Below, one piece after another: positions 21,479 to 37,855 of a stretch of 64,000 bases of DNA. Under the pieces are notes generated by a model. The model had not been told where the DNA came from. It worked only from the letters and a program-made list of their open reading frames with translations, and made no database searches. Within the stretch, counting starts at the first letter, position 1. Every line of letters begins with the position of its first letter. Source of the stretch: Echinicola jeungdonensis. GTDB taxonomy: Bacteria; Bacteroidota; Bacteroidia; Cytophagales; Cyclobacteriaceae. The position numbers and the translations under genes were made by a program. The stretch lies in contig NZ_JAUFQT010000001.1 in NCBI RefSeq assembly GCF_030409905.1, forward strand, positions 2,397,001-2,461,000, given 5' to 3'.

Positions 21479-21520
21479 TACGTATAAATACGTATTTTGT
21501 TTACGTAGGAGTTTTGCGTA
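21479..21520. promoter_or_regulatory. TACGTA array upstream of moaD
   Basis: Exact TACGTA at 21479-21484, 21489-21494 and 21502-21507, and a one-mismatch copy TGCGTA at 21515-21520. Spacings are 10, 13 and 13 bases. The array lies about 105-145 bases upstream of the moaD ATG, where an activator site could be. Binding by the neighbouring NarL-like regulator is proposed, not shown. Confidence 0.55.
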
Positions 21521-21616
21521 ATCATGAAATATTAACCTTGGCTCGCAAGATAGCAAATATAAGATGAACTCACAATTACGCCTTTGTAAGGTGTTGTTGT
21601 AAAGTTGATTTGCTTT

Positions 21617-22297
21617 TTAAGCGCTTTCTATGTGTTGTTTTAGTCCAGGCTCATCCTCCAGTTTTTTGAGCAATTCCACCACATTGTTCACTTTTAGTTT
21701 TTTCATGATATTAAAACGGTGGGTTTCTATGGTTCTTATGCTTTTACCCAATTGTTCTGCGATTTCTTTGTTACCAATTCCATCAGCAATCATCTTGAGA
21801 ATTTGCTTTTCCCTTTTGGTAATATCGTACTCATTAATCGCACTTATTTTTTGGGTGACCTTTCTGTCTCTTACATTAAGGTAGCTATTGACAAGTACCT
21901 GACTAATATCTCCACTGAAATATTTGCCTCCATGGTGAATGGCTCTGATTGCTTTCATAAACTCTTCCTTGCTAGTGTCCTTTAGGAGATAACCTGATGC
22001 TCCACTTTCTATGGATTGCAAAATATAATCCTCGTCATCATGCATGGAAAGGATAAGTGCTTTGGTGGAAGAGTCATTGCTGGTTAATTTTTTTGTGGCG
22101 TCAAGGCCATTCATCACCGGCATCCGAATATCAATTATCAATAAGTCTGGTTTTAATTTTTTGACTACCTCAAGGGCCTCTTCACCATTGGAAGCTTCAC
22201 CAATGACTTTTACCTCTCCTTCATTTTCCAGAAGGTTTTTGATCCCACTTCTGACCACCAAGTGGTCATCTGCTAATACTACTGTTATTTTTTCCAT
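21617..22297 (-). CDS. NarL/FixJ-family response regulator
   Basis: 226 residues: a receiver domain (about 1-120) with the acidic pair D10/D11, phospho-acceptor D56 in LIIDIRMPVMNG and K109-like Lys in LLKDTSKEE, followed by a LuxR-type helix-turn-helix (TKREKQILKMIADGIGNKEI, then QLGKSIRTIETHRFNIMKKL). It follows the kinase gene by 19 bases and is its obvious partner. Set inside nitrate and Mo-cofactor genes, it probably controls them. The TACGTA boxes share the TAC/GTA ends of known NarL heptamers. Confidence 0.92.
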   Translation of the reverse strand: MEKITVVLADDHLVVRSGIKNLLENEGEVKVIGEASNGEEALEVVKKLKPDLLIIDIRMPVMNGLDATKKLTSNDSSTKALILSMHDDEDYILQSIESGASGYLLKDTSKEEFMKAIRAIHHGGKYFSGDISQVLVNSYLNVRDRKVTQKISAINEYDITKREKQILKMIADGIGNKEIAEQLGKSIRTIETHRFNIMKKLKVNNVVELLKKLEDEPGLKQHIESA

Positions 22298-22316
22298 GGT
22301 TTAATTTTTAATTAAC

Positions 22317-24134
22317 TTAATCTAAAGGAAGGTTGATACCTATGGTTGTACCCTTTCCTTTTTCTGAAGTAATGGTACATTGGCCGTTGATGAAGTTGGC
22401 CCTTTCACGGATATTGAACAACCCATGGCCTGAGGCTGATAAATGGCCCTTTTCCTCCAGTTTTTTCATGTCAAATCCTTTCCCATTATCTTTGATTTCT
22501 ACATTGAGAAACTGTGAATTATGGGATAGCGTGATCTTGACTTCTTCTGCCTCTGCGTATTTGATTGCATTGTTTACAGCTTCCTGACAGATCCGGTAAA
22601 GGTTGTTTTCGACCTTTCCCTCCAACCTGGATAAAAATCCAGTTTGGTTTTCGAAGGTGACCTTCAAATCCGACAGCTTGGTGATTTCCCGGCAAAATTT
22701 GTTTAATACGGGGACAATTCCATAATCAGACAAGGCGCTTGGCGTCAGGTTAAATGAAATCCTTCTGACTTCCTTGATAACATTTTTAAGTAAATCCCGG
22801 GTAGTCTTGAGCTTTTCTTTTTCAAATTCCGAGTTTACTGAGTGTATGCCCTCCAGGTTGAATTTCATGGCGGAAAGGAGTTGGCCTATTCCATCATGCA
22901 TGTCCCGGGAAATCCTTTTTCTTTCTTCTTCCTGCCCTTCCAGGATCAGTGCGGAGCGGAATTGCTGCTCTTTTACCTTTTGCTCTATCCTTTCCCTGTT
23001 GATTTCTTGAGAAATGGCTTCTGCTTCTTTTTTCTCTGTTTCATCAGTGCTGATGATCATAAGGGTTTCAGCTTTGCCAAAGTCATTCATGGTTGGGATA
23101 ATGTTCATTTTAAGCCAAACAAAATCCCCCATGGCGTTTACCAGCTTTATCTCCCCACTCCAGGATCGACCGCTTAATACCATCTCTTTTATATTTTCCA
23201 GGTATTCAGGGTTATAACCTTGATCCTGAAGCCAGGTGAATAGGTTTTTGGGTTTGTCCTCTTCAAATTCCATCAATTGAGAAAACTGATCAGAGAAATG
23301 AATGAAATTCCCCTTTGCATTGCATTTGGCATATACGGTGACATCATCCACCGCTACATCTACCTCCAGTAAATCCTGGTAAGCCTGTTCTAAGGAACTG
23401 TAAAGTGCACTGAGTTCCAAAGTCATTTTTTTTGACTTTTGTTCGGATTGTAAAAGTTTTTTGAAAGTTTTCCGAATGGTCTTGGCAGAGGGGATAAAGA
23501 TAAAGAATATCTCAAAAAGGATTACCCCTAGGGATAAGACCAATAGGAAAAGCTCAATGCTCCTTAAGTTCATGACTTTGGACTTGGCCTCATTGTCATA
23601 CTGAAAAACAATCAAATCCATCCCAGAAAGGAATTCCTGTTGGTGATCAATAATCTGACGGATATCTTTACGCAAACTATCCGTTGGAATATTTATATTG
23701 TTTTTTAGTTTTTTAATAATAGCCTGCGCAGCCTGGACCATTTGATTGTGGTCATTTTCTATTTCAGAAAACAGAAGATTGATCTTTTTACTGTTTCTTC
23801 CGTTTATGCCCAATTCTAGGTTCCCTTCCTGTAGCCCCTGATGGGTTACTTGCCAATTTTCCAAGGAAGTTTCCAGTTCGTCCAGGTATTGTTCTCTTTT
23901 TTCGGTATTGGTGGAATCACCCAAAAGGAGTGCGCATTTACTTATGCGTTGGCTAAGCATCCTTTGCCTTCCGGACAGATTGACCACCCGTGAATCATTT
24001 TTTTGTTCACTGATAAATTTTTGAACCAAAATTTGACTGATGATAATGCTGGTAGCTATGGCGCAAAGGGCTACCATATAGTACCTGCCCAATTTTTCAA
24101 ATTTTGGTTTTTCCGTAAGGGATGAGTTTTCCAT
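22317..24134 (-). CDS. NarX-like sensor histidine kinase with PilJ/NarX sensor, PAS and HisKA_3 domains
   Basis: 605 residues. Membrane helices at about 18-38 and 193-215 flank a periplasmic helical domain that begins with VVNLSGRQRMLSQRISK (50-66), the PilJ/NarX-type motif like the P-box region that binds nitrate/nitrite in NarX. A PAS-like domain (about 255-370) and a HisKA_3 region follow, with H413 in SRDMHDGIGQLL, then a HATPase_c domain ending ...GKGTTIGINLPLD. Nitrate or nitrite is the expected ligand, from motif and context. It forms an operon with the response regulator. Confidence 0.9.
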   Translation of the reverse strand: MENSSLTEKPKFEKLGRYYMVALCAIATSIIISQILVQKFISEQKNDSRVVNLSGRQRMLSQRISKCALLLGDSTNTEKREQYLDELETSLENWQVTHQGLQEGNLELGINGRNSKKINLLFSEIENDHNQMVQAAQAIIKKLKNNINIPTDSLRKDIRQIIDHQQEFLSGMDLIVFQYDNEAKSKVMNLRSIELFLLVLSLGVILFEIFFIFIPSAKTIRKTFKKLLQSEQKSKKMTLELSALYSSLEQAYQDLLEVDVAVDDVTVYAKCNAKGNFIHFSDQFSQLMEFEEDKPKNLFTWLQDQGYNPEYLENIKEMVLSGRSWSGEIKLVNAMGDFVWLKMNIIPTMNDFGKAETLMIISTDETEKKEAEAISQEINRERIEQKVKEQQFRSALILEGQEEERKRISRDMHDGIGQLLSAMKFNLEGIHSVNSEFEKEKLKTTRDLLKNVIKEVRRISFNLTPSALSDYGIVPVLNKFCREITKLSDLKVTFENQTGFLSRLEGKVENNLYRICQEAVNNAIKYAEAEEVKITLSHNSQFLNVEIKDNGKGFDMKKLEEKGHLSASGHGLFNIRERANFINGQCTITSEKGKGTTIGINLPLD

Positions 24135-24670
24135 AATGCTATTGCAAGACTTTAAAATTACGTAAAAACACTTAAAAAGTTAAGCGCCTTAGCGGATTCT
24201 TTGAAGGTCTAGCGGCTTCTTTGGTATTCCCTATCCCAAAAATATTCAGGGATTTAGGGGTGAAAGTTGATTTCTAGGCCAAATATAAGTGAAGTAATTT
24301 ATATGAATGGTTCCTTTAATGGCTTTTTGGATGATTTTGTGAAACTGGTAAGTATAAATAAAATATTTACGTAAAGGGGGGATATTTTTTTGTACCAACA
24401 TTATTGTAAAACCTTCCGGTTTTTAAGGGTTGGGGTAGGATTCAATTTTTATTCAATGAATACTTTAAGATCAAAAGGGAAAAAAGTTAAACTTTTTGAT
24501 CTGATGAAGGATGTTGTTGGAAAAGGTAAAATGTTGATTGGTTAATAGTTGGTAGTCAACGGTTACACAATCAATTGTAAGTTGGCTTTCATTAGTAATT
24601 CAATATTTTACTAAACAATATTGAATATTGTTTCATAGTCTTTAGGTAATGGCTGGGAGGAGGGAAAATA
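24135..24670. promoter_or_regulatory. Kinase promoter region with two TACGTA boxes and a direct repeat
   Basis: 536 bases with no gene. TACGTA occurs at 24159-24164, 25 bases ahead of the kinase ATG, and at 24368-24373. A 13-base direct repeat AGCGGmTTCTTTG lies at 24191-24203 and 24211-24223, one mismatch and exactly 20 bases apart. These suggest regulation of the two-component operon, possibly autoregulation. Confidence 0.4.
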
Positions 24671-24702
24671 AAAAAGCAGGGTCCATCAACCAAACCCTGC
24701 TT
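24671..24702 (-). terminator. Terminator of the nirBD operon
   Basis: A 9-bp stem AAGCAGGGT/ACCCTGCTT with an 11-base loop, followed on the minus strand by a U-rich tract. It lies 40 bases after the nirD stop. Confidence 0.85.
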
Positions 24703-24741
24703 AGTGAGAAAAATAGGTCTACTAGCTAATTGTTCCATAAA

Positions 24742-25125
24742 TTAATCCTCAAAACCAACATACACGTAGCCGTCTTCTATCTTAATAGGATAGGTGGCTA
24801 TATCGCATGTGTCGCCGCTGAGGTTCTTCCCCGTTTTAAGGGAGAAGGTCTTCTTGTGGAAAGGACAAGCCACTTTGGGTTCCTGCTCTTCCCCTTCTGA
24901 TCCGATCATTCCTCTGGAGAGGCTCATCTGCATTTTATGAGGGCAAAGGTTTTGGCATGCATACCATTCATTCCTTCTGGTGAAGTTAAAAACGGCAATC
25001 TGTAGGTCTTTATATTTGATGCATGCACCCCCATTTTCAGGGAAGGCACTTACCGGGGCTGCCTTATACCACGTTTTAACTTTGGACGAATCCGCTGTTT
25101 TATATTTTTCCAATTCAGATATCAT
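24742..25125 (-). CDS. nirD: Assimilatory nitrite reductase small subunit, Rieske type
   Basis: 127 residues with a Rieske [2Fe-2S] fold. Both ligand pairs are present: C61-x-H63 in LCPHK and C87-x2-H90 in CPFHKK. Some NirD proteins have lost these ligands, so here a real cluster is likely. It follows nirB by 52 bases in the same direction and completes the NADH-dependent nitrite reductase. Confidence 0.93.
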   Translation of the reverse strand: MISELEKYKTADSSKVKTWYKAAPVSAFPENGGACIKYKDLQIAVFNFTRRNEWYACQNLCPHKMQMSLSRGMIGSEGEEQEPKVACPFHKKTFSLKTGKNLSGDTCDIATYPIKIEDGYVYVGFED

Positions 25126-25177
25126 ATTTTTCTAAATTAAAGGTCACTTGTAAATGTTGAATAGGTTATTGGGTAGC

Positions 25178-27673
25178 TTAGCCCCAGGAAGCAGGGATTT
25201 TTTGTCCCCTCATTTCCTGCCAATCTAAGTTGGGATCTTCCTCATCAGAGTTGACAAAGTGTTTGAATTTTGCTCTCAGTTCAGGGTTGTTCACTACTTC
25301 CTTCCATTCACAAGCGTATGTCTGGATCATGAACTCCATTTCTTTTTCCAGTTCTTCCCCAATGCCCAAACTGTCATTAACTACAACATCTCTCAGGTAA
25401 TCCATACCACCTTCCAATTTGTTCAGCCAAGTAGCTGTTCTGGTAAGTGGTTCGGCAGTCCTGATGTAGAACATCAAGAATCTATCTATGTATTTAAGGC
25501 AAGTTTCTGTATCTACATCGTTGATAAGCAACTGAGCATGTTGTGGTTTAGATCCTCCGTTTCCACATACATAAAGGTTCCAGCCTTTTTCTGTGGCGAT
25601 GATACCAAAGTCCTTACTTTGGGCCTCGGCACATTCCCTGATACATCCTGATACAGCACCTTTTATTTTGTGCGGGGAACGTAAACCTCGATATCTTTCT
25701 TCCACCTGGATAGCAAAGGATACAGAGTCCTGAACCCCATATCGGCACCATGTGGAACCTACACAACTCTTGATTGTTCTAAGGGATTTACCGTAAGCAT
25801 GTCCACTTTCAAATCCGGCATTGATCAATTCTTCCCAAATGTCAGGAAGCTGATCCACACGGGCACCGAATAAGTCAATTCGCTGACCACCGGTGATTTT
25901 GGAGTACAGGCCGTATTTCTTGGCAACCTCCCCAAGTACGATTAATTTATCTGGAGTGATTTCTCCTCCTGGTACCCTTGGTACTACAGAGTAAGTTCCT
26001 CCTTTTTGGATATTGGCCAGGTACCTGTCGTTGGTGTCCTGGATGGTATCTTGTTTGGTAATCAATTCGTTCCAAGTGGAAGCGAGGATGGAAGCGACTG
26101 CGGGTTTACACACCTCGCAGCCGTCCCCTTTACCAAACTGATCTAAGAGTTCATCGTAAGATTTGATCTTTTTGACTTTTACGATATCCAAAAGTTCTTG
26201 TCTGGAATAGTCAAAGTGATCACAAATAACGTTTTTGACTTGTTTACCCATGGACTTCAGCTGATGCTTCAGCAGGTCATTGACCATGGGAACACATCCT
26301 CCACAACCGGTACCGGCTTTGGTGCAGGATTTGATCTCGTCCATTTTGGTTACCCCATCATTTTCGATGATGGAGCAAATATCTCCTTTGGTGACATTTT
26401 CACAAGAACAAACCTGGGCTTCATTAGGAAGACTTTCCACTCCGGCACCTGCGGATTCTTTTCCTCCTCTGGCTCCGAGAATCAAATCTTCCGGTTCAGG
26501 AGGTAATGGCATTTTGTTTTGGGCCATTTGCCACAACATGCTGTATTCCGTAGCATCTCCTACTAAAATCCCGCCCAGCAATCTCTTTCCGTCAAGGGAA
26601 ACGTTTATTCTTTTATATAAACCACTGTTTTTGTTTTCATAAACAATGGGCTTGGAAGGCTCTACCTCTCCAAATGGATCTCCAAAACTTCCTACATCCA
26701 CACCGATTAATTTTAGTTTGGTGGACATGTCAAAGCCAAGGAATGGTTTTACTTCCTCTTCAACCAATTGATTGACTACCTGAGTGGCCATTTCATAGCC
26801 TGGAGCAACCAATCCGTAAATCATATTTTGGTAAGATGCTACCTCACCGATAGCATAAATATCCTCATCTTCGGTTTGCAAAAACTCATTCACAATGACA
26901 CCGCCCCTGGGAGCTGTTGGCAATCCACAATCTTTTGCCAACTCATCGCGGGGTTTGATACCCGCAGAAATTACCAGCATATCTACAGGTAATTCCGAAT
27001 CATCTGCAAATTTCAACCCGGTCATTTCTCCATCGCCTTGAATTAACTGGGTGTTTTTACTTAGGTGAATGGAAATTCCCAAGTCTTCCAACTTGGATTT
27101 TAGAATAGAAGCTCCTGCATCATCCAATTGACGTGGCATCAATCTGGGTGCAAATTCGATCACGTGGGCCTCCAATCCCATGTCCATAACAGCTTTGGCT
27201 GCTTCAAGTCCTAAAAGTCCGCCCCCTATGACTGCAGCAGATGTTGCCTTTTTGCCGTAATCTATAATAGCATCCAGGTCTTCCAAGGTCCTGTAAACAA
27301 ACACACCTTTTTTCTCCACCCCTTCAATTGGCGGAACAAATGCGCCAGAACCTGTAGCCAATACTAACTTATCATAAGAAACTTCCTCTCCAGTATGACT
27401 GATCACCTTCTTCTTGTCTCGGTCTATTTTGACAACCAGTTCATTTGTGCGCAAGTCAATTTTATTTTCTTTGTACCATTCTACAGGAGCCATAATGAGG
27501 TCGTCTGCAGTTGATCCAGAGAAATAAGCACTCAAATGAACCCTGTCATAGGCTGGCCATGGCTCCTCACCAAAGACAGTGACATCAAAGTCACTTCCCG
27601 CTTCGGAAACCCTAAGTTTTTCACAAAACTTATAGCCTACCATTCCATTTCCGATTACTACTACCTTTGTCAT
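25178..27673 (-). CDS. nirB: Assimilatory nitrite reductase [NAD(P)H] large subunit
   Basis: 831 residues. Order: FAD/NAD-binding oxidoreductase (about 1-300, VVIGNGMVGYKF, AAVIGGGLLGLEAA), NirB-type [2Fe-2S] region (CSCENVTKGD and CGGCVP), a second short BFD-like segment with CEVC, then the sulfite/nitrite-reductase ferredoxin-like domain and the siroheme/4Fe-4S domain with CVGSTWC (Cx5C) and CIREC (Cx3C). It reduces nitrite to ammonium with six electrons. It is divergent from cobA, sharing a 160-base promoter region with TACGTA boxes. Confidence 0.97.
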   Translation of the reverse strand: MTKVVVIGNGMVGYKFCEKLRVSEAGSDFDVTVFGEEPWPAYDRVHLSAYFSGSTADDLIMAPVEWYKENKIDLRTNELVVKIDRDKKKVISHTGEEVSYDKLVLATGSGAFVPPIEGVEKKGVFVYRTLEDLDAIIDYGKKATSAAVIGGGLLGLEAAKAVMDMGLEAHVIEFAPRLMPRQLDDAGASILKSKLEDLGISIHLSKNTQLIQGDGEMTGLKFADDSELPVDMLVISAGIKPRDELAKDCGLPTAPRGGVIVNEFLQTEDEDIYAIGEVASYQNMIYGLVAPGYEMATQVVNQLVEEEVKPFLGFDMSTKLKLIGVDVGSFGDPFGEVEPSKPIVYENKNSGLYKRINVSLDGKRLLGGILVGDATEYSMLWQMAQNKMPLPPEPEDLILGARGGKESAGAGVESLPNEAQVCSCENVTKGDICSIIENDGVTKMDEIKSCTKAGTGCGGCVPMVNDLLKHQLKSMGKQVKNVICDHFDYSRQELLDIVKVKKIKSYDELLDQFGKGDGCEVCKPAVASILASTWNELITKQDTIQDTNDRYLANIQKGGTYSVVPRVPGGEITPDKLIVLGEVAKKYGLYSKITGGQRIDLFGARVDQLPDIWEELINAGFESGHAYGKSLRTIKSCVGSTWCRYGVQDSVSFAIQVEERYRGLRSPHKIKGAVSGCIRECAEAQSKDFGIIATEKGWNLYVCGNGGSKPQHAQLLINDVDTETCLKYIDRFLMFYIRTAEPLTRTATWLNKLEGGMDYLRDVVVNDSLGIGEELEKEMEFMIQTYACEWKEVVNNPELRAKFKHFVNSDEEDPNLDWQEMRGQKIPASWG

Positions 27674-27773
27674 ACTATATAAGTTTAAATGATTGGGTCA
27701 TTTATTATTTCTAAGTAATTAAGCTTGCTTGCTAGCCTAATTCAGATGCTAAGATAGAAATTATTTTTTATAA

Positions 27774-27801
27774 TACGTAAAAATACGTAAAAAAATACTT
27801 A
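27774..27801. promoter_or_regulatory. TACGTA pair in the nirB/cobA divergent promoter
   Basis: Exact TACGTA at 27774-27779 and 27784-27789, 10 bases apart, followed by the one-mismatch copy TACTTA at 27796-27801. The pair stands about 11-26 bases upstream of a cobA -7 box and about 100 bases from the nirB ATG, so one site set could serve both genes. Confidence 0.55.
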
Positions 27802-27807
27802 AATTTG
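27800..27807 (+). promoter_or_regulatory. -7 box TAAATTTG, probable cobA promoter
   Basis: Exact match to the Bacteroidota TAnnTTTG element, 27 bases upstream of the cobA ATG. No good -33 element lies upstream; the TACGTA pair occupies that place, which fits an activator-dependent promoter. Confidence 0.5.
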
Positions 27808-27833
27808 TTTTAACAATTAAGTAATAAAGGCAT

Positions 27834-28607
27834 ATGAAGACTGTAATTCCTCAACTTTCACTCGTAGGTGCAGGACCGGGAGATCCCGATTTAATCACCT
27901 TAAAAGCCATTAAAGTCCTTAAAAAGGCAGATGTGGTTTTATATGATGCCCTAGCCAATGAAGCTTTTCTGGAATACGTACCGGACACAGCATTAAAAAT
28001 ATTTGTTGGTAAAAGGGCTGGACTTCACTATAGGCAGCAAAGGGAGATCAATCGGATGATCGTCAATTATGCTAAAACTTGTGGGAATGTTGTGAGGCTT
28101 AAAGGGGGAGACCCTTATGTATTTGGTAGAGGGCATGAAGAATTAGAATATGCTGCAAAGCATGGTGTGCCTACTGATTATGTGCCCGGCATCAGTAGTG
28201 CCATGGCTGTACCTGGATTAAGCGGTATACCATTGACTAAGAGGGGAGTAAATGAAAGTTTTTGGGTGGTTACCGGTACCTTAAAGGATCATTCTACCGC
28301 GCAGGACTTATTTTATGCTGCTCAGTCTTCTGCCACGGTCATAATATTAATGGGAGTGAAAAAGCTTCCTGAAATCGTTTCCCTTTTTAAACAGTATAGA
28401 GGGAATGAAGAGGATATTTCCCTGATTCAGAATGGAAGTAAGGAAAATGAACGTTCCATTACAGGGAAACTGAAAGACATAATGGAAATCCAGAAAAAAG
28501 AAAAAATTTCAGCTCCTGCCATCATTGTTATCGGGAAAGTGGTTGGGGAGAAAAAAGACTATTTGAAAAATCTCCTTGGACAAGACTCCCTTGTGGTAAC
28601 CAAATAG
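27834..28607 (+). CDS. cobA: Uroporphyrinogen-III C-methyltransferase
   Basis: 257 residues with the SUMT signatures LVGAGPGDPDLITLKA, VRLKGGDPYVFGRG and VPGISSAMAVPGLSGIPLT. It methylates uroporphyrinogen III to precorrin-2, the precursor of siroheme, which NirB needs. It lacks a CysG-type dehydrogenase/chelatase domain, so that step is encoded elsewhere. It is transcribed away from nirB and ends before a strong terminator. Confidence 0.96.
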   Translation: MKTVIPQLSLVGAGPGDPDLITLKAIKVLKKADVVLYDALANEAFLEYVPDTALKIFVGKRAGLHYRQQREINRMIVNYAKTCGNVVRLKGGDPYVFGRGHEELEYAAKHGVPTDYVPGISSAMAVPGLSGIPLTKRGVNESFWVVTGTLKDHSTAQDLFYAAQSSATVIILMGVKKLPEIVSLFKQYRGNEEDISLIQNGSKENERSITGKLKDIMEIQKKEKISAPAIIVIGKVVGEKKDYLKNLLGQDSLVVTK

Positions 28608-28684
28608 GAAGGTGTCAATAAAATTAGGTTGATGTTGCCAGATGAGAAAAAATATATTTTTTCATTTTGGTTTAACTAAAATAG

Positions 28685-28712
28685 CCCCGCCAATTGGTGG
28701 GGTTGTTTTTTT
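28685..28712 (+). terminator. Rho-independent terminator after cobA
   Basis: CCCCGCC/GGTGGGG stem with AATT loop and one G-T pair, followed by a T-rich tract. Confidence 0.88.
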
Positions 28713-29249
28713 GGTGGGTGATTTTTTTTATGAAGTAAACTGGAAAGAGATTTTGGGTAGTTGGAGCTACATGTATTGATAATCGGTTTCCCTTTTTAGG
28801 CTTTGGCTATCCATTTTCGGTGGTATAACCGAGGTAAGATAAAAGAATAAAGAAGGGAAAATCCGTATGATCATTCGACTTTCCTAATTCAACGACCCAT
28901 TTGTCGAAAATTAGGTCTGTCAGTTTCATGGTTTGAAAAAAATTACCAGCCCTTTTCTTAAAAAAAATCAATATCCTGAATATTAGCTAACTAAGCCTTG
29001 TGGTTATTTAAATGGTAATAATGACTTTTAAAGAAAGGTTGTTCCTGAAAAGTTTCTTGGTTAATGTTTAAGTGCTAATGGTCTTTTCATAATAACAGTT
29101 GGAGCTTTATTCTTTCAGCCTTGGCGTTTGTCCAAAAATGCCTAATTGGTTTAACTTAATCCATCAAATTCTCATTTCAAAACTGATTTTATCCTTTTAT
29201 CTGTGGGGAATTAGCTTTATTTTAATTTTTAAACAGAATTAACCTGAAA
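28713..29249. other. Gap upstream of the DUF4202 gene
   Basis: About 540 AT-rich bases. No open frame, TACGTA box or strong hairpin was seen. It presumably contains the promoter of the gene at 29250. Confidence 0.4.
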
Positions 29250-29843: not shown

Positions 29844-30080
29844 GAAATTAGAAGTTTGAGTCTGATCCTGGTGTCATTATATACAGGCACCGGTTTTTTT
29901 ATTCCTCAATTCAAAAATGTGGGTATTGTGCTCAACTATCTAATGCTTCGATTTTTGGCCAGACAAATCACCATATTTATTCCCTCTTTTTTAAAAATCC
30001 ATTAATCTTTTTACTTAATAGCCACAGCACCTACTGGGCTACTATCTATTGCAGCCATATCAACTAATTCCGATTATAAA

Positions 30081-30110
30081 TAAAACGGGGGGATGATCCT
30101 TCATCCCCCC
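30081..30110 (-). terminator. Terminator of the narK-nitrate reductase operon
   Basis: A perfect 10-bp stem GGGGGGATGA/TCATCCCCCC with TCCT loop. On the minus strand it is followed by GTTTTATTT. It lies 24 bases past the last gene of the operon. Confidence 0.88.
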
Positions 30111-30133
30111 TTGGTTGGTTAGGGTTTAGGTGG

Positions 30134-30523
30134 TTAGCATTTTTGGTAATCTTCCATAGAATGGGGATTAGGAAAATTATCCCTTTCATCCTCATCAGGC
30201 CTTTTATGCAGGCACTGAAAGTCTTTTTCAATCAAAATAATGCTTTCATGGTTCGTACTTTCTTTTTGAACATGTCTTAAAGAAACTTCATCGGTAGTAG
30301 CCCATTTAGTGGACATAGGTGCAGGGACTTTTACGAGGATTTCATTATCCTTAATGTTTGCCCCAATGCAGTCGACGTCTTTTTCAGGGACAAGGCTATA
30401 ACGTAAGACCTCTTTTTCGCCAAGTTGGAGAGTCTGGTGAACGGCCTCTTCTTTGGCTATTTTTTCCACTTCAGTTTGGGTAAGCCTTAACCTGATGGAA
30501 TTATTGTTGATTCTTAATTTCAT
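30134..30523 (-). CDS. Small conserved protein of the nitrate operon (DUF7009-like)
   Basis: 129 residues starting MKLRINNNSIRLRLTQTEVEKI, a start I associate with a small uncharacterised family in Bacteroidota. The middle (VLRYSLVPEK, NEILVKVPAP) looks beta-rich; the tail has the sequence FQCLHKRPDEDERDNFPNPH with conserved-looking Cys and acidic residues. There is no signal peptide or membrane helix. It is the last gene before the operon terminator, 33 bases after the rubredoxin fusion, so it is probably connected with nitrate reductase function or assembly. Family name is from memory. Confidence 0.7.
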   Translation of the reverse strand: MKLRINNNSIRLRLTQTEVEKIAKEEAVHQTLQLGEKEVLRYSLVPEKDVDCIGANIKDNEILVKVPAPMSTKWATTDEVSLRHVQKESTNHESIILIEKDFQCLHKRPDEDERDNFPNPHSMEDYQKC

Positions 30524-30556
30524 AGGATACTTTTAGTTTACCTCTTTAACTGATAA

Positions 30557-31981
30557 TTAAATTAGTTTAAATGCGGATTTAGGGCTTTCACAAACCGGAC
30601 AATTGTAATCTTCGGGTAACTTCAAAAACGAAGTGCCTGCTGCTATTTCCGATTCCGGATCCCCGTACTTTTCGTCATATACTGTCAAACAGCTTGAACA
30701 CTGGTATTTCCTATGTTGCTTTTTGGGAGTACCCTCTACCGTATCCACAGGATCAGAAGTTTTTCTTACCTCCAATTGATCATAATATTTATAGCTCAAT
30801 TCTATTAATAAGGGTGGCAAAGTTTCTTTCGGAACATTTTTAGCGTAATAGAAATATTCAGAAAGGTTTGGGTTAAAATCTTTGCTGTATAGAATATTAA
30901 AGGTGTCAGGGTCATTCGGCTTTTCCTTTTTGGTTTTTTCAATGGCCACAGAAGTAAACAGGGCCATGTGTTTTGTTTTCACTGAAAAGCTTAAACCGTA
31001 AGTACTGATATCTTGCTTATCAAGGGCCCTTACCAGATAATTTTTAATTTCAAGGGCTTCCTCATCCAATACAGGAAGGTGCCAATTGAGCTCCAAAGAA
31101 CTGTGCCGGATATTGATACCGTATTTTCCCAGCAATTTTTCCCAACTCAAACGGTCTTTTTCTGCAATGCCTTTTACAATGATTGATTTCCAAGGTGTAA
31201 GGCATATTTTACCAATGTTGGTGTCCAGGCATAACTGGCAAAGGGCTTTTAGGAAGTTGATGGTAAACTTGTTATTCCTCCAATATAGTCCCAACCAATA
31301 TTTTCCTCCAACAACCCTGTTCATTCCTTCATAATAAGGTGTGGTGGCTTCAGGATAATCCAATTCCTGTTCCACAGGTTGGGTGTTGGGGGTAGTTATT
31401 TCCTTGGCCTTTTGATAGATCTCAGGGTATTTGAGTTCACTTTTGACCGGGTTGATTTCCTCAATGGCCCTGGCAACCCTGGCCAAATCATAACCATAAA
31501 TCAAATCCGGTGCACACCATGGTTTGACATCAATTTCAGAAAACCGGAGATAGAGGTACCAATAATTGTCATGGGATGAAGCCACGAAATTGATGTTTCC
31601 GGTAAATAGGGGTACCAAGCTTTGAACCGGGTCGGTAATATTGATTTTAAGTTTTGGCTTATAATCAAAGGTGTCCAGGATGTAGTGATAATTATGAGAA
31701 GCCAGCCAATGGGTGGTAGGCATTACATCCAGGGCAGGATAGGAAGATACTACGTTTTGGAATTCCTCTCCATCAGTATCATACTCTGTGTCTATGGCCT
31801 TAAATGTGGTGGCCAAAGTTTCAAGGTTTTTGTTTTTCAAAGGAAAGAGTACGTCCTGTCTTGAACCCAAGTGTATATAACTGGTGCCTAATTCATTGGC
31901 TGTATGTATCATTTTGAGAAAATCCCCGGGGGAAATAATCCCTCCCCGGACAAATACCCTGACGAGATCTGCTTTTTGCAT
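30557..31981 (-). CDS. Sulfite/nitrite-reductase-like protein fused to rubredoxin, without siroheme cysteines
   Basis: 474 residues. The N-terminal ~400 residues look like the ferredoxin-like half-repeats of sulfite/nitrite reductases (VRVFVRGGIISPGDFLKM, GSRQDVLFPLK, LTPWKSIIVKGI). However, no Cx5C...Cx3C pair for the 4Fe-4S/siroheme centre exists; the few cysteines are scattered. Residues 425-474 form a rubredoxin: C428-x2-C431 and C461-x2-C464 around a GDPESEIAAGTSF core. A catalytic nitrite reductase is therefore unlikely; an electron carrier or docking subunit for the fused nitrate reductase encoded just upstream is the better guess. It lies 177 bases after that gene in one operon. Confidence 0.8.
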   Translation of the reverse strand: MQKADLVRVFVRGGIISPGDFLKMIHTANELGTSYIHLGSRQDVLFPLKNKNLETLATTFKAIDTEYDTDGEEFQNVVSSYPALDVMPTTHWLASHNYHYILDTFDYKPKLKINITDPVQSLVPLFTGNINFVASSHDNYWYLYLRFSEIDVKPWCAPDLIYGYDLARVARAIEEINPVKSELKYPEIYQKAKEITTPNTQPVEQELDYPEATTPYYEGMNRVVGGKYWLGLYWRNNKFTINFLKALCQLCLDTNIGKICLTPWKSIIVKGIAEKDRLSWEKLLGKYGINIRHSSLELNWHLPVLDEEALEIKNYLVRALDKQDISTYGLSFSVKTKHMALFTSVAIEKTKKEKPNDPDTFNILYSKDFNPNLSEYFYYAKNVPKETLPPLLIELSYKYYDQLEVRKTSDPVDTVEGTPKKQHRKYQCSSCLTVYDEKYGDPESEIAAGTSFLKLPEDYNCPVCESPKSAFKLI

Positions 31982-32023
31982 GTTTATTTACCTTTTGTTC
32001 CAAATACCGGAATTTAATTTCTG

Positions 32024-32052
32024 GTTATTACAGCCCCAAAGGCTGTAATAAC
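32024..32052. repeat. Intercistronic 12-bp hairpin between nitrate reductase and the rubredoxin fusion
   Basis: GTTATTACAGCC pairs perfectly with GGCTGTAATAAC around a CCAAA loop. No U-tract follows on the minus strand, so it is not a classical terminator. It could stabilise or process the mRNA and so set the ratio of the two proteins. Confidence 0.6.
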
Positions 32053-32158
32053 GGTGGGGCAGTACAGTAAATTTATTAGATTTTTTTTAATTCCAGCTCG
32101 AAACTTAATGCACCTTATTTTAATCTAATTAATCAAATCGAAAAGGCCAAACTGCCCA

Positions 32159-35100
32159 TTAGGCATCCACCAAAGCACTAAGCTCATCATCCAGGATGCC
32201 TTTGACTTCTGGTTTGCAGCTTCCGCATCCAAGTCCGGCCCCAGTTTGTTGACAGAGCTGACGGAATTCCTGACATCCGGATTGGATGGCTTTAGTGATA
32301 TTTCCTTTACCGACATTTCCGCATGAACAAACCATTTCTCCAATCATTTCTTCTTTATTGGAATTGCCTCTTAACAATTCTTGACGTTTTTTGGAAAGTT
32401 CGGTTTTTTCTTCAATGAGTTCTTTAAATTCCGCAAATTCGGTTTTATCCCCCATAAGGATGGCTCCTACTAATCGGTCTTTGTAAACGATACATTTTTT
32501 ATAGTATGTTTGAGCGGTATCGATCAGTAATATTTCCTCATATCCCTCTCCATTGGCTGGTTTTTCTGGAATACCCATGGAGCAAAGGTCCAGGTCGGAG
32601 AATTTAAGGATATTCATTGGAATAGATCCCTTATATAGGCTCAATAAGTCTCCAGTGATAAATCTGGCCGCATTGTCTGCTTGGGCTTCTGCAGCTGCTG
32701 TAATGCCATTGAGTTTCCCTTTATGTTCAGCAATTTCCCCCATGGCAAAGATGGATGGGTCACTGGTTTGCAGGTAATCATTGACTTTAATTCCTCTTCC
32801 GCAATCCAGACCTGTTGATTTCGCCAATTCTACGTTTGGCCTTGTTCCAATTGCGTATACAACCGCATTGCATGGGATGGACTGGCCACTTTTCAGGCTG
32901 GCTGTTATCTTTTTCTGATCTCCCTGGGCTTCCAAGTGGGAAACCTGGTTGTTCATAAAGAGCTGAACTCCCATTTCCTCGATTTTTTCCCGGAGCAAGG
33001 AACTTGCCATAGGATCCAACTGACGTTCCATCAATCTTGAGCCAAGCTGGATGATAGTGACGTCAATATTGATTTCCCGAAGGGCTGCTGCCAATTCAAG
33101 GCCGAGCAAACCTCCTCCTACAATCACTACATGGCCCTTATAGTCCATGTATTCCTTCAGTTCATCAGCATTTTGCCTGTTTCTCATGGTGAAAACACCT
33201 GGCAAATGCATAGGTACATCGCCTGGAACAAAAGCCCGGCTACCGGTTGCGAGGATCAAGGTATCATAGTGGTGTACCCTTCCTTTTTCATCGGTTACAG
33301 ACTTATTGGACCTGTCAATAGATTCAATTCCATTTTCAACATATAAGTTAATGTTGAGTTTTTCCATTTCACTGGAGGACTTGAATTTTTGCAAATCTTC
33401 CCAAGTCCTATGTTTGTTTACATAATCCGGAAGTAATACCCTGTTGTAAAAGGGATATTTTTCTTTGGAGAATACATGGATTTCATCCTCCTTGTTAAAT
33501 TCCCTGTAGGTATTAATAAAGCGGTAAGCAGCCGCCCCAGCTCCTACAATGACTATTCTTTGTTTTGGCTTTTTGTAAAGGGAAACTTGTACAGCGGAGT
33601 ATTTGAAATCCGGCTGTTTGGAAACGGGGTCGATGGCGTTTCCTGTAATATTATTGGCCCGGGCAAAGTCATTTTTTAAGATTTTTCCCCAGTGCATGGG
33701 AAGGAATACCACTCCTTTTTTGATCTTGTCGGTGACTTGTGCGTGGACACGGACCTCTCCCCGGTTACCATTAACCAGAACTGTGTCTCCATCATTAATG
33801 CCTCTTTCTGCAGCATCTTCAGGATGAATTTCAAGGAAGGGAGAAGGGATATGTTTGTTCAATTTACTCACTTTTCCCGTACGGGTCATCGTATGCCATT
33901 GATCCCTAATCCTTCCTGTAGTCAGGATCAATGGTAGAACCCCTGTAGGAAGCTCGGTTTTGTTTTTCGGACCTGCAGCTAATATTTGTGCACGCTGGTT
34001 TGGCGTGTAGAATTTTTTATCCGTAAACAGCCTTGGTGTTCCTCCTTTTGACTTATCGACAAATGGCCACTGAACAGTTCCATTTTCTTTTAAAAAGTCA
34101 TAATCCAACCCTGAAATGTCAATATTGGTCCCTTTGGTCATTCGGCAATATTCCGCATAGACCTCACCCATGTTTTTATAGTCAAAACCTGGGAAGCCCA
34201 TTTTTTGGGCAAACCTGAGTAAGATTTCTGCATCAGGGAGAGCCTCTCCAGGAGCATCGGTGAATTTGTTGAGGTAACTGATTCTCCTTTCGGAATTGGT
34301 CATGGTACCCTCTTTTTCACCCCATCCTGCTGCCGGCAAAACCAAATCCGCATAAGGGATGGCCTCTGCCTTGTTGGAGATTTCTTGAACGACCACAAAT
34401 TTGGCCTTCTTAAGGGCTGCTTCAACCTTTCTGGCATCCGGCATGCTGACCAATGGATTGGTACAGATAATCCATAGGGCTTTGATGCTTCCATCTTCCA
34501 AGCCTTCGAAAATCTGCGTTGCGGTTTTACCTGGTTGGGCGGGGATCTCATCAACCCCCCAGAAGTCAGCAACCTCTTTTCTGTGCTCGGGATTGGCTAA
34601 GTTCCTGTGTGAGGCTAACAAAGTAGCCATTCCCCCCACTTCACGGCCACCCATTGCATTGGGTTGTCCTGTTAGGGAGAAGGGTCCGGAACCCGGCTTG
34701 CCGATATGTCCTGTGATCAAATTCAGGTCTATTAGGGCCAGGTTTTTATTGACCCCCTCAGCACTTTGGTTCAAGCCCATAGCCCATAGGGATAGGAAAC
34801 CTTTGGCATCTCCAATATAACTGGCTGCTTTTTTGATATCTGAAACCGGGACTCCACAAATAATGGAGGCTTCCTCCAGTGAAGTTCCCATGGCTATTTC
34901 CTTGTAGGCTTCGAAACCATCAGTATGTTTTTCAATGAAATCAAGGTCAATGTCACCTTGTTCTATCAAACACCTTCCAATGGCCAGGTACAAGGTTTCG
35001 TCTGTGCCTGGATTGATCTGTAAATGTAAATCTGCAAGAGAGCAGGTTTGGGTAACCCTTGGGTCCACCACGATAATTTTGGTGTCAGGGTTAGCTTCTT

Positions 35101-35680
35101 TGTGACTTTCCACCCTTCTCCAGAGGATAGGGTGACACCAGGCTGGGTTAGCACCAGTAACTAAAAAGCAGTCTGCCAGTTCAATGTCTTCATAAGCAAT
35201 GGGGACACTGTCCTCGCCTAGGGTTTTCACATATCCCATTACTGCAGAGCTCATGCAAAGCCTGGAGTTGGTGTCTATATTATTGGTTTTAAGGAAACCT
35301 TTGGCCAGTTTGTTGACCAGGTAATATTCTTCGGTCAAACACTGGCCGGAGACATAAAAGGCAACTGATTCGGGTCCATGTTTTTTGATAATGGATTTGA
35401 ATACAGCTCCTGCCCGGTTTATTGCAGTATCCCAGTCCACTTTTTCAAGGGGATGGGATTTTCCCCATCTCATTTGTGGATGGAGTAGCCGGTCAGACTT
35501 GTCTTCCACCACGTAGTGCAGGTTCATGCCTTTGGAGCATAACATTCCCTTGTTGACAGGATGGTCTGGGTCTCCTTCAACGGACACCTTACCTTTTTGA
35601 TCCTTTTGGACTATGATACCGCATCCTACACCACAGTAAGAACAAGTACTTTTATACCTTTCTGCCTTTGCCATTGACAT
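32159..35680 (-). CDS. nasA: Assimilatory nitrate reductase fused to a NirB-like NAD(P)H reductase module
   Basis: 1173 residues, far longer than a usual ~700-900-residue NasA. The N-terminal [4Fe-4S] motif is C13-x2-C16-x3-C20...C48, followed by the molybdopterin oxidoreductase domain and the dinucleotide-binding domain (to about 690). From about 705 (RIVIVGAGAAAYRFI) a FAD/NAD-dependent oxidoreductase like the NirB N-terminus begins, with a second Rossmann motif VVIVGGGLLGLELAA. The last ~60 residues are a BFD-type [2Fe-2S] domain (VCSCGNVGKGN, LGCGSC). Nitrate reduction and electron entry are thus in one chain, in the cytoplasm. It follows narK by 25 bases. Confidence 0.94.
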   Translation of the reverse strand: MSMAKAERYKSTCSYCGVGCGIIVQKDQKGKVSVEGDPDHPVNKGMLCSKGMNLHYVVEDKSDRLLHPQMRWGKSHPLEKVDWDTAINRAGAVFKSIIKKHGPESVAFYVSGQCLTEEYYLVNKLAKGFLKTNNIDTNSRLCMSSAVMGYVKTLGEDSVPIAYEDIELADCFLVTGANPAWCHPILWRRVESHKEANPDTKIIVVDPRVTQTCSLADLHLQINPGTDETLYLAIGRCLIEQGDIDLDFIEKHTDGFEAYKEIAMGTSLEEASIICGVPVSDIKKAASYIGDAKGFLSLWAMGLNQSAEGVNKNLALIDLNLITGHIGKPGSGPFSLTGQPNAMGGREVGGMATLLASHRNLANPEHRKEVADFWGVDEIPAQPGKTATQIFEGLEDGSIKALWIICTNPLVSMPDARKVEAALKKAKFVVVQEISNKAEAIPYADLVLPAAGWGEKEGTMTNSERRISYLNKFTDAPGEALPDAEILLRFAQKMGFPGFDYKNMGEVYAEYCRMTKGTNIDISGLDYDFLKENGTVQWPFVDKSKGGTPRLFTDKKFYTPNQRAQILAAGPKNKTELPTGVLPLILTTGRIRDQWHTMTRTGKVSKLNKHIPSPFLEIHPEDAAERGINDGDTVLVNGNRGEVRVHAQVTDKIKKGVVFLPMHWGKILKNDFARANNITGNAIDPVSKQPDFKYSAVQVSLYKKPKQRIVIVGAGAAAYRFINTYREFNKEDEIHVFSKEKYPFYNRVLLPDYVNKHRTWEDLQKFKSSSEMEKLNINLYVENGIESIDRSNKSVTDEKGRVHHYDTLILATGSRAFVPGDVPMHLPGVFTMRNRQNADELKEYMDYKGHVVIVGGGLLGLELAAALREINIDVTIIQLGSRLMERQLDPMASSLLREKIEEMGVQLFMNNQVSHLEAQGDQKKITASLKSGQSIPCNAVVYAIGTRPNVELAKSTGLDCGRGIKVNDYLQTSDPSIFAMGEIAEHKGKLNGITAAAEAQADNAARFITGDLLSLYKGSIPMNILKFSDLDLCSMGIPEKPANGEGYEEILLIDTAQTYYKKCIVYKDRLVGAILMGDKTEFAEFKELIEEKTELSKKRQELLRGNSNKEEMIGEMVCSCGNVGKGNITKAIQSGCQEFRQLCQQTGAGLGCGSCKPEVKGILDDELSALVDA

Positions 35681-35705
35681 ATGATAGATGGATTTGATTT
35701 AAATT

Positions 35706-37061
35706 TTAACTATTTACTAATTCAGGCTGAAGTTTTTTTTCAGCCAGAGACTCTTCCAGCTCTTCTTTTGCTGATTTCTCATCCTGTTCAGAGAACCTGA
35801 TAAGAAGAGTCGTTGAACTAATTGCCACAACGGCAATGCCTAATGCACATAGGGATTCTCCATAGGTAACGCCTTCCATTTTGAATAAAAAGCCGGCCAT
35901 AACCGCACCTGCATTACCTCCGGCACCTACGATTCCGGATATGATTCCAATAGCTTTTTTATTTACAAATGGGACCACGGAATATGTTGCGCCTTCTGCC
36001 ATTTGGACAAAAAGACTGAATACGATCATGGTTCCTATAGCAATTGGTAAAAGGGTCATTTGGGAGAAAAGGATAAGGGCAAACCCTTCAATCAAAACTA
36101 CAACTCCCAAGAATCCTACCCGGCCTTTGAGACCCCATTTGATGCCCGAACGGTCTCCGAAAAAACCTCCAAGAGAACGGGCAAATAAGTTCATGCCCCC
36201 AAACAAACCTGCAATTAAACCTGCAGTTTTAAGGTCCAACTTGAAGAAATCGTGATAATATATGGCTGCAATATTGTTGATGGTAAGTTCGATTCCAAAG
36301 CTGGCTCCATAAACAAGAAATAGGCACCAAACTCTTTTGTCAGTCACCGCAGCTTTAAGGGCTCCTTTGCCATCAGATTTTTTCTTTTTCTTATATTCAA
36401 GGTCCTTTTTGCTCAATTCATCAATATTTCCTTCAGGGAAATCTGTAGTGTAATGGTAGTAGAGAAACCCCGTGATGATCATGGCAATTCCTGGAACAAC
36501 CATGGCGTATCTCCAAGCTTCCGCTTCCAAAAAGCCAAAAGAAATAAATAAGGCAAATATCAATGGCATGACCATTTGGGTAACCCCTCCTCCCAGGTTG
36601 CCCCAGCCTGCGGAAGTGGCATTGGCCGTTCCGACTATATTAGGGGCAAACATGACAGAAGTGTGGTACTGGGTAATCACAAAAGATGATCCGATCATTC
36701 CAATGATCAAGCGGAAGAGCAGGAACGTCTCATAGCTGTCACTCATTCCAATGAACATCACAGGAAAGGATCCTAGGATTAATAGGTATGTATAGGTAAT
36801 TCTTGGTCCAATTCTATCAACCAGCCAACCAATTCCCAGTCTGGCCAAAACGGTTATTGACACAGAAGCAATGATAATGTTTCCTATCTGGGATTTGGTC
36901 AATTCAAGCTCTTCCCGGACCACAGCCATCAATGGCGCAATTCCAAACCAGCCAAAGAAGCACAAAAAGAAGGCAAACCATGACAAATGGAAAGCCCGCA
37001 TTTGTGGGGACTTAAAGTCCAGTAGGTTAATTGAAGTGGCTTTTTTAGTTGTTGAATTCAT
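35706..37061 (-). CDS. narK: Nitrate/nitrite transporter, NarK family (MFS)
   Basis: 451 residues with 12 predicted membrane helices. The nitrate signature regions are recognisable: AGWGNLGGGVTQMVMP and the second, GIISGIVGAGGNAGAVMAGF. RLGIGWLVDRIGPR is the MFS loop motif. It imports nitrate (and may exchange nitrite). It is the first clearly functional gene of the operon narK-nasA-rubredoxin fusion-small protein. Confidence 0.95.
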   Translation of the reverse strand: MNSTTKKATSINLLDFKSPQMRAFHLSWFAFFLCFFGWFGIAPLMAVVREELELTKSQIGNIIIASVSITVLARLGIGWLVDRIGPRITYTYLLILGSFPVMFIGMSDSYETFLLFRLIIGMIGSSFVITQYHTSVMFAPNIVGTANATSAGWGNLGGGVTQMVMPLIFALFISFGFLEAEAWRYAMVVPGIAMIITGFLYYHYTTDFPEGNIDELSKKDLEYKKKKKSDGKGALKAAVTDKRVWCLFLVYGASFGIELTINNIAAIYYHDFFKLDLKTAGLIAGLFGGMNLFARSLGGFFGDRSGIKWGLKGRVGFLGVVVLIEGFALILFSQMTLLPIAIGTMIVFSLFVQMAEGATYSVVPFVNKKAIGIISGIVGAGGNAGAVMAGFLFKMEGVTYGESLCALGIAVVAISSTTLLIRFSEQDEKSAKEELEESLAEKKLQPELVNS

Positions 37062-37110
37062 GTGTGTAAAGCTTAAATTGAAGGGAAACCTTTTTGATTC
37101 GTTTCTGGGT

Positions 37111-37602
37111 TTATTTTGCAGTCAAAAAGCTTGGGACTGGAGCCAATATGACCCCAGCCCAGCTTTTTTCAGCAGAAGCTTTGGTTGTTGGTTTTTCTTT
37201 GGTTACTGGGTGTTTGAAATTGACTTTTATAGGCTGGCCATAACTGATGATTTGATCAAATAGCCTGAGTAATTTATTGATAGAAATCAGGGGGGAAGCT
37301 ATCAAGGCCGAGAAATTCCCCACCAAAAGCTCCCTCTTCTTTTGGCTTTTATTTTCATCGGCCGAGATTAGCTCGCCTGATTTTAATTTGTAATTATTGA
37401 TTTTGGGGCATTTGAAAAGAGAATTATACTCCAAGTGAAATTTAATCTTCGATTCATAAATTTCCCCGGAATGCTCCATTGGGTCACATGAACAGCCATT
37501 GTCCAATAAACCCCGAATTGCTGCTGTTTTGACCTTAAAAAGGTCAAAACCCAATAGGGAATTTTGAAAGGTTAATGCTGTATTACGTAAAATTACGGTC
37601 AT
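37111..37602 (-). CDS. Unrecognised ORF upstream of narK
   Basis: 163 codons without a stop in AT-rich DNA, ATG at 37602. I do not recognise the product. It contains CSCDP and FKCPK cysteines, no signal peptide, and a basic C-terminus. It could be a real small protein of the operon, a broken gene, or a chance frame across the narK promoter region. A TACGTA box falls inside codons 5-7, which speaks against this start or against the whole gene. Confidence 0.3.
   Translation of the reverse strand: MTVILRNTALTFQNSLLGFDLFKVKTAAIRGLLDNGCSCDPMEHSGEIYESKIKFHLEYNSLFKCPKINNYKLKSGELISADENKSQKKRELLVGNFSALIASPLISINKLLRLFDQIISYGQPIKVNFKHPVTKEKPTTKASAEKSWAGVILAPVPSFLTAK
37584..37599. promoter_or_regulatory. 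TACGTA box plus half site upstream of narK
   Basis: Exact TACGTA at 37584-37589 and a related TACGGT at 37594-37599, again 10 bases apart. It belongs to the same motif family as the sites before moaD and nirB. Confidence 0.45.
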
Positions 37603-37816
37603 TTACTGTAGTTTTGAAAACCCAATAGGTCCAGATTTCAGGGAATGGATTCCTTTGTTGTTAAAAGGTGAATGGAGCATAGGAAAAACATGGTTGAACG
37701 CTATTCCTCTTACTTTTTCATGTCTATCCTATGCCCATAATCCTGAAGGGTTAGATTTCGCACTTCCCTGTTTGTAACCGCTAATATATGAAATGATTTT
37801 CAATAATAAGTAAAAA

Positions 37817-37855
37817 TACGTAATTAAATTTACGTAGTTTTTAATAGATTACGTA
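37817..37855. promoter_or_regulatory. TACGTA triple upstream of the narK operon and the DUF2461 gene
   Basis: Exact TACGTA at 37817-37822, 37831-37836 and 37850-37855, with spacings of 14 and 19 bases. The 354-base gap 37603-37956 separates divergent transcripts. The narK operon is the more likely target, since the rightward gene has no link to nitrate. Confidence 0.5.

Follow-up and report, generated by a model that had tools for sequence, protein, structure and literature searches.

Paired TACGTA boxes in a nitrate and molybdenum-cofactor island of Echinicola jeungdonensis as predicted operators of a NarL-type regulator

What reads the short palindrome TACGTA that recurs between the nitrate and molybdenum-cofactor genes of Echinicola jeungdonensis? 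The DNA analyzed here, termed the window, is a 64,000-nucleotide stretch (G000:C1:2397001-2461000, where G000 is the organism's own genome of 4.53 Mb), in which such boxes lie close to moaD, nirB, cobA, narK and the genes of a sensor kinase and a NarL-type response regulator (Table 1). An earlier sequence-only reading had assigned them to this regulator, encoded at 21617. Our comparative analysis points the same way and puts a probability of roughly 0.87 on the boxes being half-sites of the operator of the local PilJ-PAS kinase/NarL-type regulator pair. The boxes, their spacing, orientation and conservation, and their link to one clade of regulators, emerge directly from the computations described below.

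Scanning the whole genome (4,534,283 bp, 13 contigs) revealed 161 copies of TACGTA compared to 948 copies of the reversed control ATGCAT, which makes TACGTA a rare box. As this hexamer is also the recognition site of SnaBI, site avoidance could contribute to the rarity. The 64-kb window nevertheless holds 13 exact copies, against 2.42 expected from shuffling (0 of 100 shuffles gave 13) and 2.27 expected at the genome's own rate (Poisson 8.5e-7). The interval 21479-37855 alone contains 12 copies versus 0.58 expected at the genome rate (1.8e-12), but because this interval had been picked by the sequence-only reading, the 64-kb Poisson value is the fair figure. All copies listed in that reading were recovered by our exact-box scan, and the single copy it placed in a symporter at about 46275 exists at position 46278. 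The two listed variants are confirmed as well, TACTTA at 27796 and TGCGTA at 21515, the latter perhaps a weak fourth member of the moaD array. Close pairs are concentrated as well: two TACGTA copies 2-16 bases apart occur at seven genomic places, five of them in the nitrate island, so the density of paired boxes elsewhere is not equal, whereas the control, six times commoner singly, forms such pairs at five places. The exact arrangement TACGTA-N4-TACGTA is found at four places genome-wide, against 0.006 under independence, and two of the four are in the island.

Further analysis of pair geometry used loci encoding regulators of the ET-helix type (103 listed, 91 after near-duplicate removal; 1.60 Mb, 823 TACGTA, 442 ATGCAT). 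Dropped before the count of 103 were L226 (4.3 kb) and L254 (helix QVHRFN), both free of boxes, as well as L191 and L193, which share the helix EVHRFN and in which no nitrate genes were found. In the 91 loci, 97 TACGTA pairs are spaced at 10 bp, with more maxima at 20-25, 30-34, 41-45 and 52-56 bp that correspond to whole helical turns; by contrast, ATGCAT gave five pairs in total up to 60 bp. The non-palindromic hexamer TACTTA fixes the orientation of the half-sites, and its partners at a gap of four bases face with TAC inward in 86 cases versus outward in four. Any TNNGTA-N-TACNNA arrangement occurs 279 times at gap 4, compared to 25-67 times at each other gap from 0 to 11, and the gap-4 half-sites are mainly TACGTA (314) and TACTTA (125). 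Given this gap preference, the inward TAC and the identity of the half-sites, the operator is a 16-bp inverted repeat, TAMGTA-N4-TACKTA. In the window, two half-sites absent from the sequence-only reading add to this: CACTTA at 24169 completes the operator at 24159, and TAAGTA at 37807 completes that at 37807..37822. Among the spacings that the sequence-only reading had listed, the 10-bp step (gap 4) is thus the key one, whereas the 13-, 14- and 19-bp steps belong to looser array members.

The expectation that orthologous moaD and nirB promoters carry boxes was borne out: in 10/10 same-genus genomes (L038-L047), moaD is preceded by an exact TACGTA-N4-TACGTA, and the DNA between nirB and cobA holds a second one. 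The kinase promoter has at least one TACGTA in the same proportion of same-genus genomes (10/10), with the degenerate partner TAAGTG four bases off in the printed promoters, and autoregulation of the kinase-regulator genes via 24159..24174 is possible.

Beyond the genus, box presence follows the identity of the regulator. We searched 156 genomes from the order, 62 of which have NirB, and fetched 58 neighbourhoods; besides these, G040 and G046 had been retrieved already, G000 is the source of the window, and G122 was dropped, its contig lacking the nirB start. Genomes were sorted into the E-T type by the helices read in their regulators. At least two TACGTA lie in the 350 nt upstream of nirB in 22/22 genomes with an E-[TVA]-H-R regulator, compared to 0/36 with any copy among the other genomes (Fisher 1.8e-16), in line with the predicted use of these boxes by the regulator at 21617. 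A larger tree set, which also took in genomes of the genus and the family plus 17 loci chosen from class-level or named genomes, has TACGTA in 50/50 E-[TVA]-H-R nirB promoters versus 0/38 others. In this sorting, G166 was placed in an A-N-Q-R group with its helix unread, and nine genomes in which nirB is not flanked by a regulator of any of these groups were pooled (one of them, G082, has a regulator with helix EVHRAR elsewhere); since no non-ET promoter has TACGTA, this filing leaves 0/36 and 0/38 unchanged. The locus survey, which left out L257-L280, agrees: among the readable nirB promoters of L188-L256, at least one box is present in 41/41 and at least two in 38, a count that overlaps partly with the earlier genomes and from which three loci were dropped for an absent gene start. 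The rows of all these counts are related. Genome-wide, exact pairs occur in 21/23 genomes with an E-[TVA]-H-R helix read versus 30/133 others (44 versus 36 pairs; Fisher 3.3e-10), and the reversed control gave 11 and 21 pairs in the same groups. Box status can be mapped on the NirB tree with three changes, compared to a shuffled mean of 28.6. G051, G107, G119 and G068 fall among the box-free NirBs on this tree, yet have an E-T regulator and boxes; the regulator gene lies 17-30 kb from nirB on the same contig in G051, G107 and G068, and on another contig in G119.

For 14 loci outside the order, the prediction was set beforehand. The five with E-[TVA]-H-R-F have 8-12 TACGTA in 17.6-19.9 kb, and the remaining nine have 0-5 in 7.7-19.9 kb. 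Box-bearing orthologue loci in Flavobacteriaceae and Sphingobacteriaceae include those of Maribacter (seven loci, 8-16 boxes), Olivibacter (10 and 10), Parapedobacter (7) and Mangrovimonas (3).

The box-free sister regulators carry the helix RTVDNHRA (D-N-H-R). In the 19 nirB promoters of this group the top hexamer is TACTCA, found in 15/19 within 300 nt (2.1 expected) and in 17/19 within 350 nt; in the 58-genome set it is present in 16/17 D-N-H-R promoters versus 9/41 others. Pairs of TACT[CT]A in D-N loci are arranged inward at a 10-bp step 14 times versus at most three times in any other arrangement, and TACTCA-only pairs five times versus at most two. Over 24 D-N loci, TNNGTA-N-TACNNA occurs 26 times at gap 4 compared to 3-14 times elsewhere, with TACTCA (19) and TACTTA (13) as half-sites. 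No nitrate genes were found in the D-N loci outside the order. The residues that differ between the two helix types correspond to K188/V189, the K-V of the NarL recognition helix, in a comparison based on alignment. A third type, A-N-Q-R (NTVANQRAS), has GTACTA/TAGTAC as top hexamer in 10/10 nirB promoters, partly as sequence near the start codon (nirB promoters with helix NTVANQRAS regulators are those of G140, G065, G092, G159, G172, G104, G150, G191 and G128), and the pair-geometry scan resolved no dyad in this group.

The kinases were compared by Pfam scan. Among eight box-linked kinases including that of the window, PilJ matches 8/8 (G051 and G068 below cut-off) and PAS 7/8 (G188 below cut-off, G154 none), whereas among six box-free kinases PilJ matches 6/6 (G097 below cut-off) and PAS 0/6. 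The idea that box-free genomes have a non-PilJ kinase was rejected, as PilJ was found in all six box-free kinases scanned. The contrast of TACGTA and TACTCA between helix types is a correlation across few events. We lean, with some reserve, towards two sister clades of Bacteroidota nitrate regulators that diverged in specificity: E-[TVA]-H-R, mostly with a PilJ-PAS kinase, would read TACGTA, and D-N-H-R, with PilJ and no PAS, TACTCA, both accepting TACTTA and keeping GTA-N4-TAC, while nirB promoters would have swapped boxes as the regulator type changed, a natural specificity code legible in two residues. If true, this contrast would be a compact case of NarL-type regulators changing DNA specificity.

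We propose that the membrane kinase, combining a PilJ-type nitrate sensor with PAS, would phosphorylate the NarL-type regulator, and that the regulator dimer would bind TAMGTA-N4-TACKTA directly, placing a recognition helix in each half-site from the same side of the DNA. Additional dimers could line up on the extra boxes, which are spaced by whole helical turns. In the genus, the moaD and nirB pairs are followed by a TAnCTT element about 17 bases downstream, and over 399 pair directions in the 91 loci the TAnCTT distance peaks at 17 with 23 matches, every other distance having at most two. A pair at this distance would reach into the -33 region, as class-II activator sites do, and nitrate, the putative signal, would therefore most likely activate. 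It would thereby turn on an FNR-like gene, a nitrate ATP-binding cassette (ABC) transporter and the functions of the island: synthesis of molybdenum cofactor and siroheme, reduction of nitrite and nitrate, and uptake.

Several observations weigh against this assignment. The E-T and D-N helix types divide essentially once on the regulator tree, so the match between helix and box rests on few events; of the three changes of box status on the NirB tree, two are forced by well-supported branches. The kinase architecture changes along with the helix type, so the roles of kinase and regulator are inseparable. One class-level locus, L194 (helix ETHRRN, 7.7 kb, no nitrate genes found), is without boxes, contrary to the literal wording of the prediction, and the 16.7-kb locus of Indibacter alkaliphilus has one exact box. 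In the own genome, the relaxed operator occurs at seven places versus five for the reversed control, which is little excess. As for promoter position, 17 of the 23 TAnCTT matches come from the own genus and four from Cyclobacterium, and a class-II activator position at moaD and nirB would accordingly apply mainly within the family. TAnnTTTG is the consensus of Bacteroidetes promoters, and this canonical element peaks at 8 and 10 bases (11 and 15 matches) in 25 loci including the cobA side of the window; outside the family the activator position is weakly supported.

Could something else account for the boxes? Chance or base composition, by which an AT-rich palindrome would accumulate in AT-rich intergenic DNA, agrees with the mostly intergenic position of the boxes and with their AT-rich bases on either side of the CG core, but with 161 copies against 948 of the reversed control TACGTA is the rarer hexamer, and the shuffles, spacing, orientation and cross-genome tests are all contrary, which leaves this account next to no credence. 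The boxes might instead serve a Crp/Fnr-family regulator, encoded at G000:C1:1712259, as operators: its promoter has an exact pair, and its orthologues of at least 58% identity are boxed in 19/19 cases. Fnr sites are inverted repeats with a 4-bp gap, a form that suits an Fnr-type dimer here. However, G002 and G004 keep both the moaD and the nirB pair intact, yet no match to this protein was found there at E <= 1e-30, nor was an orthologue of at least 58% identity found in 12/22 box-bearing genomes outside the genus. This account would also leave unexplained why the half-site is a different one where the sister NarL-type regulator has a different helix. Apart from the NarL-type regulator, the Fnr-like protein was the sole transcription factor detected next to a pair of boxes; it behaves as a target, and we regard it as a very unlikely reader of the boxes.

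It is likewise very unlikely that the boxes are bound by a different, unrecognised regulator that these genomes share and that simply accompanies the two-component genes. The association is one of co-occurrence, which leaves room for such a protein. Yet the nirB boxes of G051, G107, G119 and G068 are kept despite the distance of nirB from the regulator gene, the half-site changes with the regulator sub-clade while the geometry stays constant, and the kinase-regulator genes are themselves preceded by a box. Assignment of the boxes to the kinase-regulator pair remains the reading that we prefer.

Table 1. Boxes, operators and genes discussed in the text (window positions unless a contig is given).
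Feature	Position	Strand	Remarks
Operator TACGTATAAATACGTA	21479..21494	.	upstream of moaD-moaE-moaA-moaC-mobA-moeB run; exact pair in 10/10 same-genus genomes
Third TACGTA of moaD array	21502..21507	.	outside genus-conserved pair
Degenerate operator TACGTAAAAACACTTA	24159..24174	.	directly upstream of kinase-regulator genes
Single TACGTA	24368..24373	.	between nirD and kinase; no partner at 10 bp
Operator TACGTAAAAATACGTA	27774..27789	.	divergent nirB/cobA promoter; exact pair in 10/10 same-genus genomes
TACTTA, weaker half-site	27796..27801	.	overlaps TAAATTTG (27800-27807)
TACGTAAAATTACGGT, operator-like	37584..37599	.	5' end of 163-aa open reading frame (ORF163) upstream of narK
Operator TAAGTAAAAATACGTA	37807..37822	.	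between ORF163/narK and DUF2461; in relaxed-operator scan at G000:C1:2434807
TACGTA, same array as 37807..37822	37831..37836	.	exact-box scan
TACGTA, same array as 37807..37822	37850..37855	.	exact-box scan
moaD (ThiS family, 79 aa, Gly-Gly end)	21136..21375	-	named from family and position
NarL-type response regulator (REC + GerE), recognition helix RTIETHRFN (E191, T192)	21617..22297	-	PF00072 and PF00196 above cut-off; proposed binder
Sensor kinase, PilJ + PAS_9 + HisKA_3 + HATPase	22317..24134	-	PF13675, PF07730, PF02518 above cut-off
nirD, nitrite reductase small subunit	24742..25125	-	
nirB, nitrite reductase large subunit	25178..27673	-	
cobA, uroporphyrinogen-III C-methyltransferase (siroheme)	27834..28607	+	
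NasC-like nitrate reductase fused to NirB-type FAD/NADH half	32159..35680	-	model matches below cut-offs
narK-family nitrate/nitrite transporter	35706..37061	-	305.6 bits, cut-off 311.7
Fnr-like gene (cNMP_binding + HTH_Crp_2)	G000:C1:1712259-1712975 (L147:8260-8976)		N-terminal CxxCxxxxC cluster

In the island, moaD is followed by moaE, moaA, moaC, mobA and moeB, reaching down to 17588. The best solved relative of the regulator is E. coli NarL, and its closest named relatives, from Echinicola and Cyclobacterium, share 78-86% identity. The sensor kinase has a P-box-like segment VVNLSGRQRMLSQRI that includes the Arg and Gly of nitrate-sensing kinases. TAAATTTG would be the -7 element of cobA. 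A protein with a nitrite/sulfite-reductase ferredoxin-like half domain and a rubredoxin domain adjoins the NasC-NirB fusion within 30557-35680. The boxes that had been placed before narK do lie upstream of the ORF163-narK-nasC run, but the one at 37584 sits inside the 5' end of ORF163, and those at 37817-37855 lie between ORF163 and DUF2461. ORF163 itself (37111-37602, longest start) has no family match and no match in related same-genus loci. Possibly it is spurious, the stretch being the leader of narK, and a box would then merely fall at the 5' end of this false ORF.

The claim that the island is one regulon is supported, but the predicted regulon extends past the island. Scanning the own genome with the relaxed operator gave seven places, three in the island. 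Two flank the Fnr-like gene, one before and one after it, the latter heading a nitrate ABC-transporter operon that encodes an Alginate_exp-family protein, an NMT1-like protein, a permease and an ATPase. Of these products, the ATPase passes the NCBIfam nitrate-transporter model, and the permease matches the nitrate permease model below cut-off. Among Fnr-like orthologues of at least 58% identity, 19/19 carry one or two upstream copies of TACGTA, 12 of them an exact pair, compared to 0/7 of the more distant ones examined; within the genus, at least one TACGTA is found in 8/8. The operator-like site downstream of the Fnr-like gene is present in 9/9 genus loci including the own, and the transporter operon next to it was read in the own genome alone. 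The Fnr-like gene is probably a regulon member, and its product is perhaps an oxygen or nitric oxide sensor below the nitrate regulator.

The other two relaxed operators lie upstream of an aconitase gene (G000:C1:3164466) and close to amtB and a BBP2 porin. TAAGTR-N4-TACTTA precedes aconitase in 11/11 genus genomes and 0/7 outside, a conservation that counts for less because the flanking sequence is conserved too. Among 20 further exact-pair regions of box-bearing relatives (L168-L187), 19 pairs are intergenic. Genes with such a pair in front include narK (L170, L184), aconitase B (L173-L176), an isocitrate-dehydrogenase-family gene (L183), a globin and a formate/nitrite transporter, and in L180-L182 the pairs stand directly after nasC, ahead of an aldehyde dehydrogenase or a nitrite/sulfite-reductase-like gene. 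Other neighbours, for example a V-type ATPase subunit, 6-phosphogluconate dehydrogenase and a Sua5-like gene, have no evident nitrogen link. The aconitase and aconitase B sites hint at a link of nitrate to 2-oxoglutarate supply. The site close to amtB and the porin is the 16-mer TACGTACTTTTACGTA at G000:C1:1010498 (L146:7499), which recurs unchanged, on one strand or the other, among the pairs of G104, G142, G172 and G191; three of these genomes have a box-free nirB and one has no NirB match. Separately, L191 and L193 (both class-level, helix EVHRFN) have 8 and 10 TACGTA nearby in loci with no recognised nitrate genes.

Bacteroidetes nitrate-sensing kinases (narHK/narRR) have been classed into those with and without PAS in a study that, in its accessible text, treats kinases and gene order; no operator was seen and the word promoter is absent in that portion (PMC8199190). 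The own kinase fits the PAS-containing class described there, which clusters with Indibacter alkaliphilus, whose regulator (L210) is 68% identical to the own, and the PAS-less class matches the box-free sister kinases (PMC8199190). An open-access literature search found no description of these boxes; new here are the sequence, geometry, orientation and phylum-wide spread of the operator, together with the contrast to the sister regulator. The Bacteroidota nitrate-sensing kinases thereby gain a concrete operator and a predicted regulon, and nitrate control in a large phylum becomes directly testable. Like the Crp/Fnr-type operator of HcpR, given as wyTTGACnnnnGTCAArw in the available part of its description (PMC1274295), the present operator is an inverted repeat with a 4-bp gap, but the half-site sequence is another. 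Unlike in a Crp/Fnr system, the matching protein was not found in G002, G004 and 12/22 other box-bearing genomes.

The closest parallel is offered by the NarX-NarL and NarQ-NarP systems of E. coli, in which NarX and NarQ are PilJ-type sensor kinases with HisKA_3; a PilJ-type kinase with HisKA_3 and a NarL-type regulator are likewise paired here. According to the accessible portions of the cited papers, NarL sites are inverted heptamers 2 bp apart (7-2-7) (PMC7419079, PMC4549865) with the heptamer consensus TACYYMT (PMC4886647), activator sites are located directly upstream of the -35 element (PMC7419079), and an engineered narG site, TACCCCTAAAGGGGTA, is a 16-bp inverted repeat with outer TAC...GTA (PMC4549865). 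TACGTA-N4-TACGTA shares the 16-bp length and the outer TAC/GTA, weaker copies having an outer A for C (TAAGTA). The sequence-only reading had invoked the TAC/GTA-ended heptamers of NarL-type regulators, and these outer bases and the length stand, whereas the inner sequence differs: the half-sites TACGTA and TACTTA do not fit the heptamer TACYYMT (PMC4886647). In contrast to the E. coli operator, the inner GTA/TAC is the most constrained part here. In addition, the aligned recognition helix has E-T instead of the K-V of NarL, the kinase contains PAS, and the targets are assimilatory.

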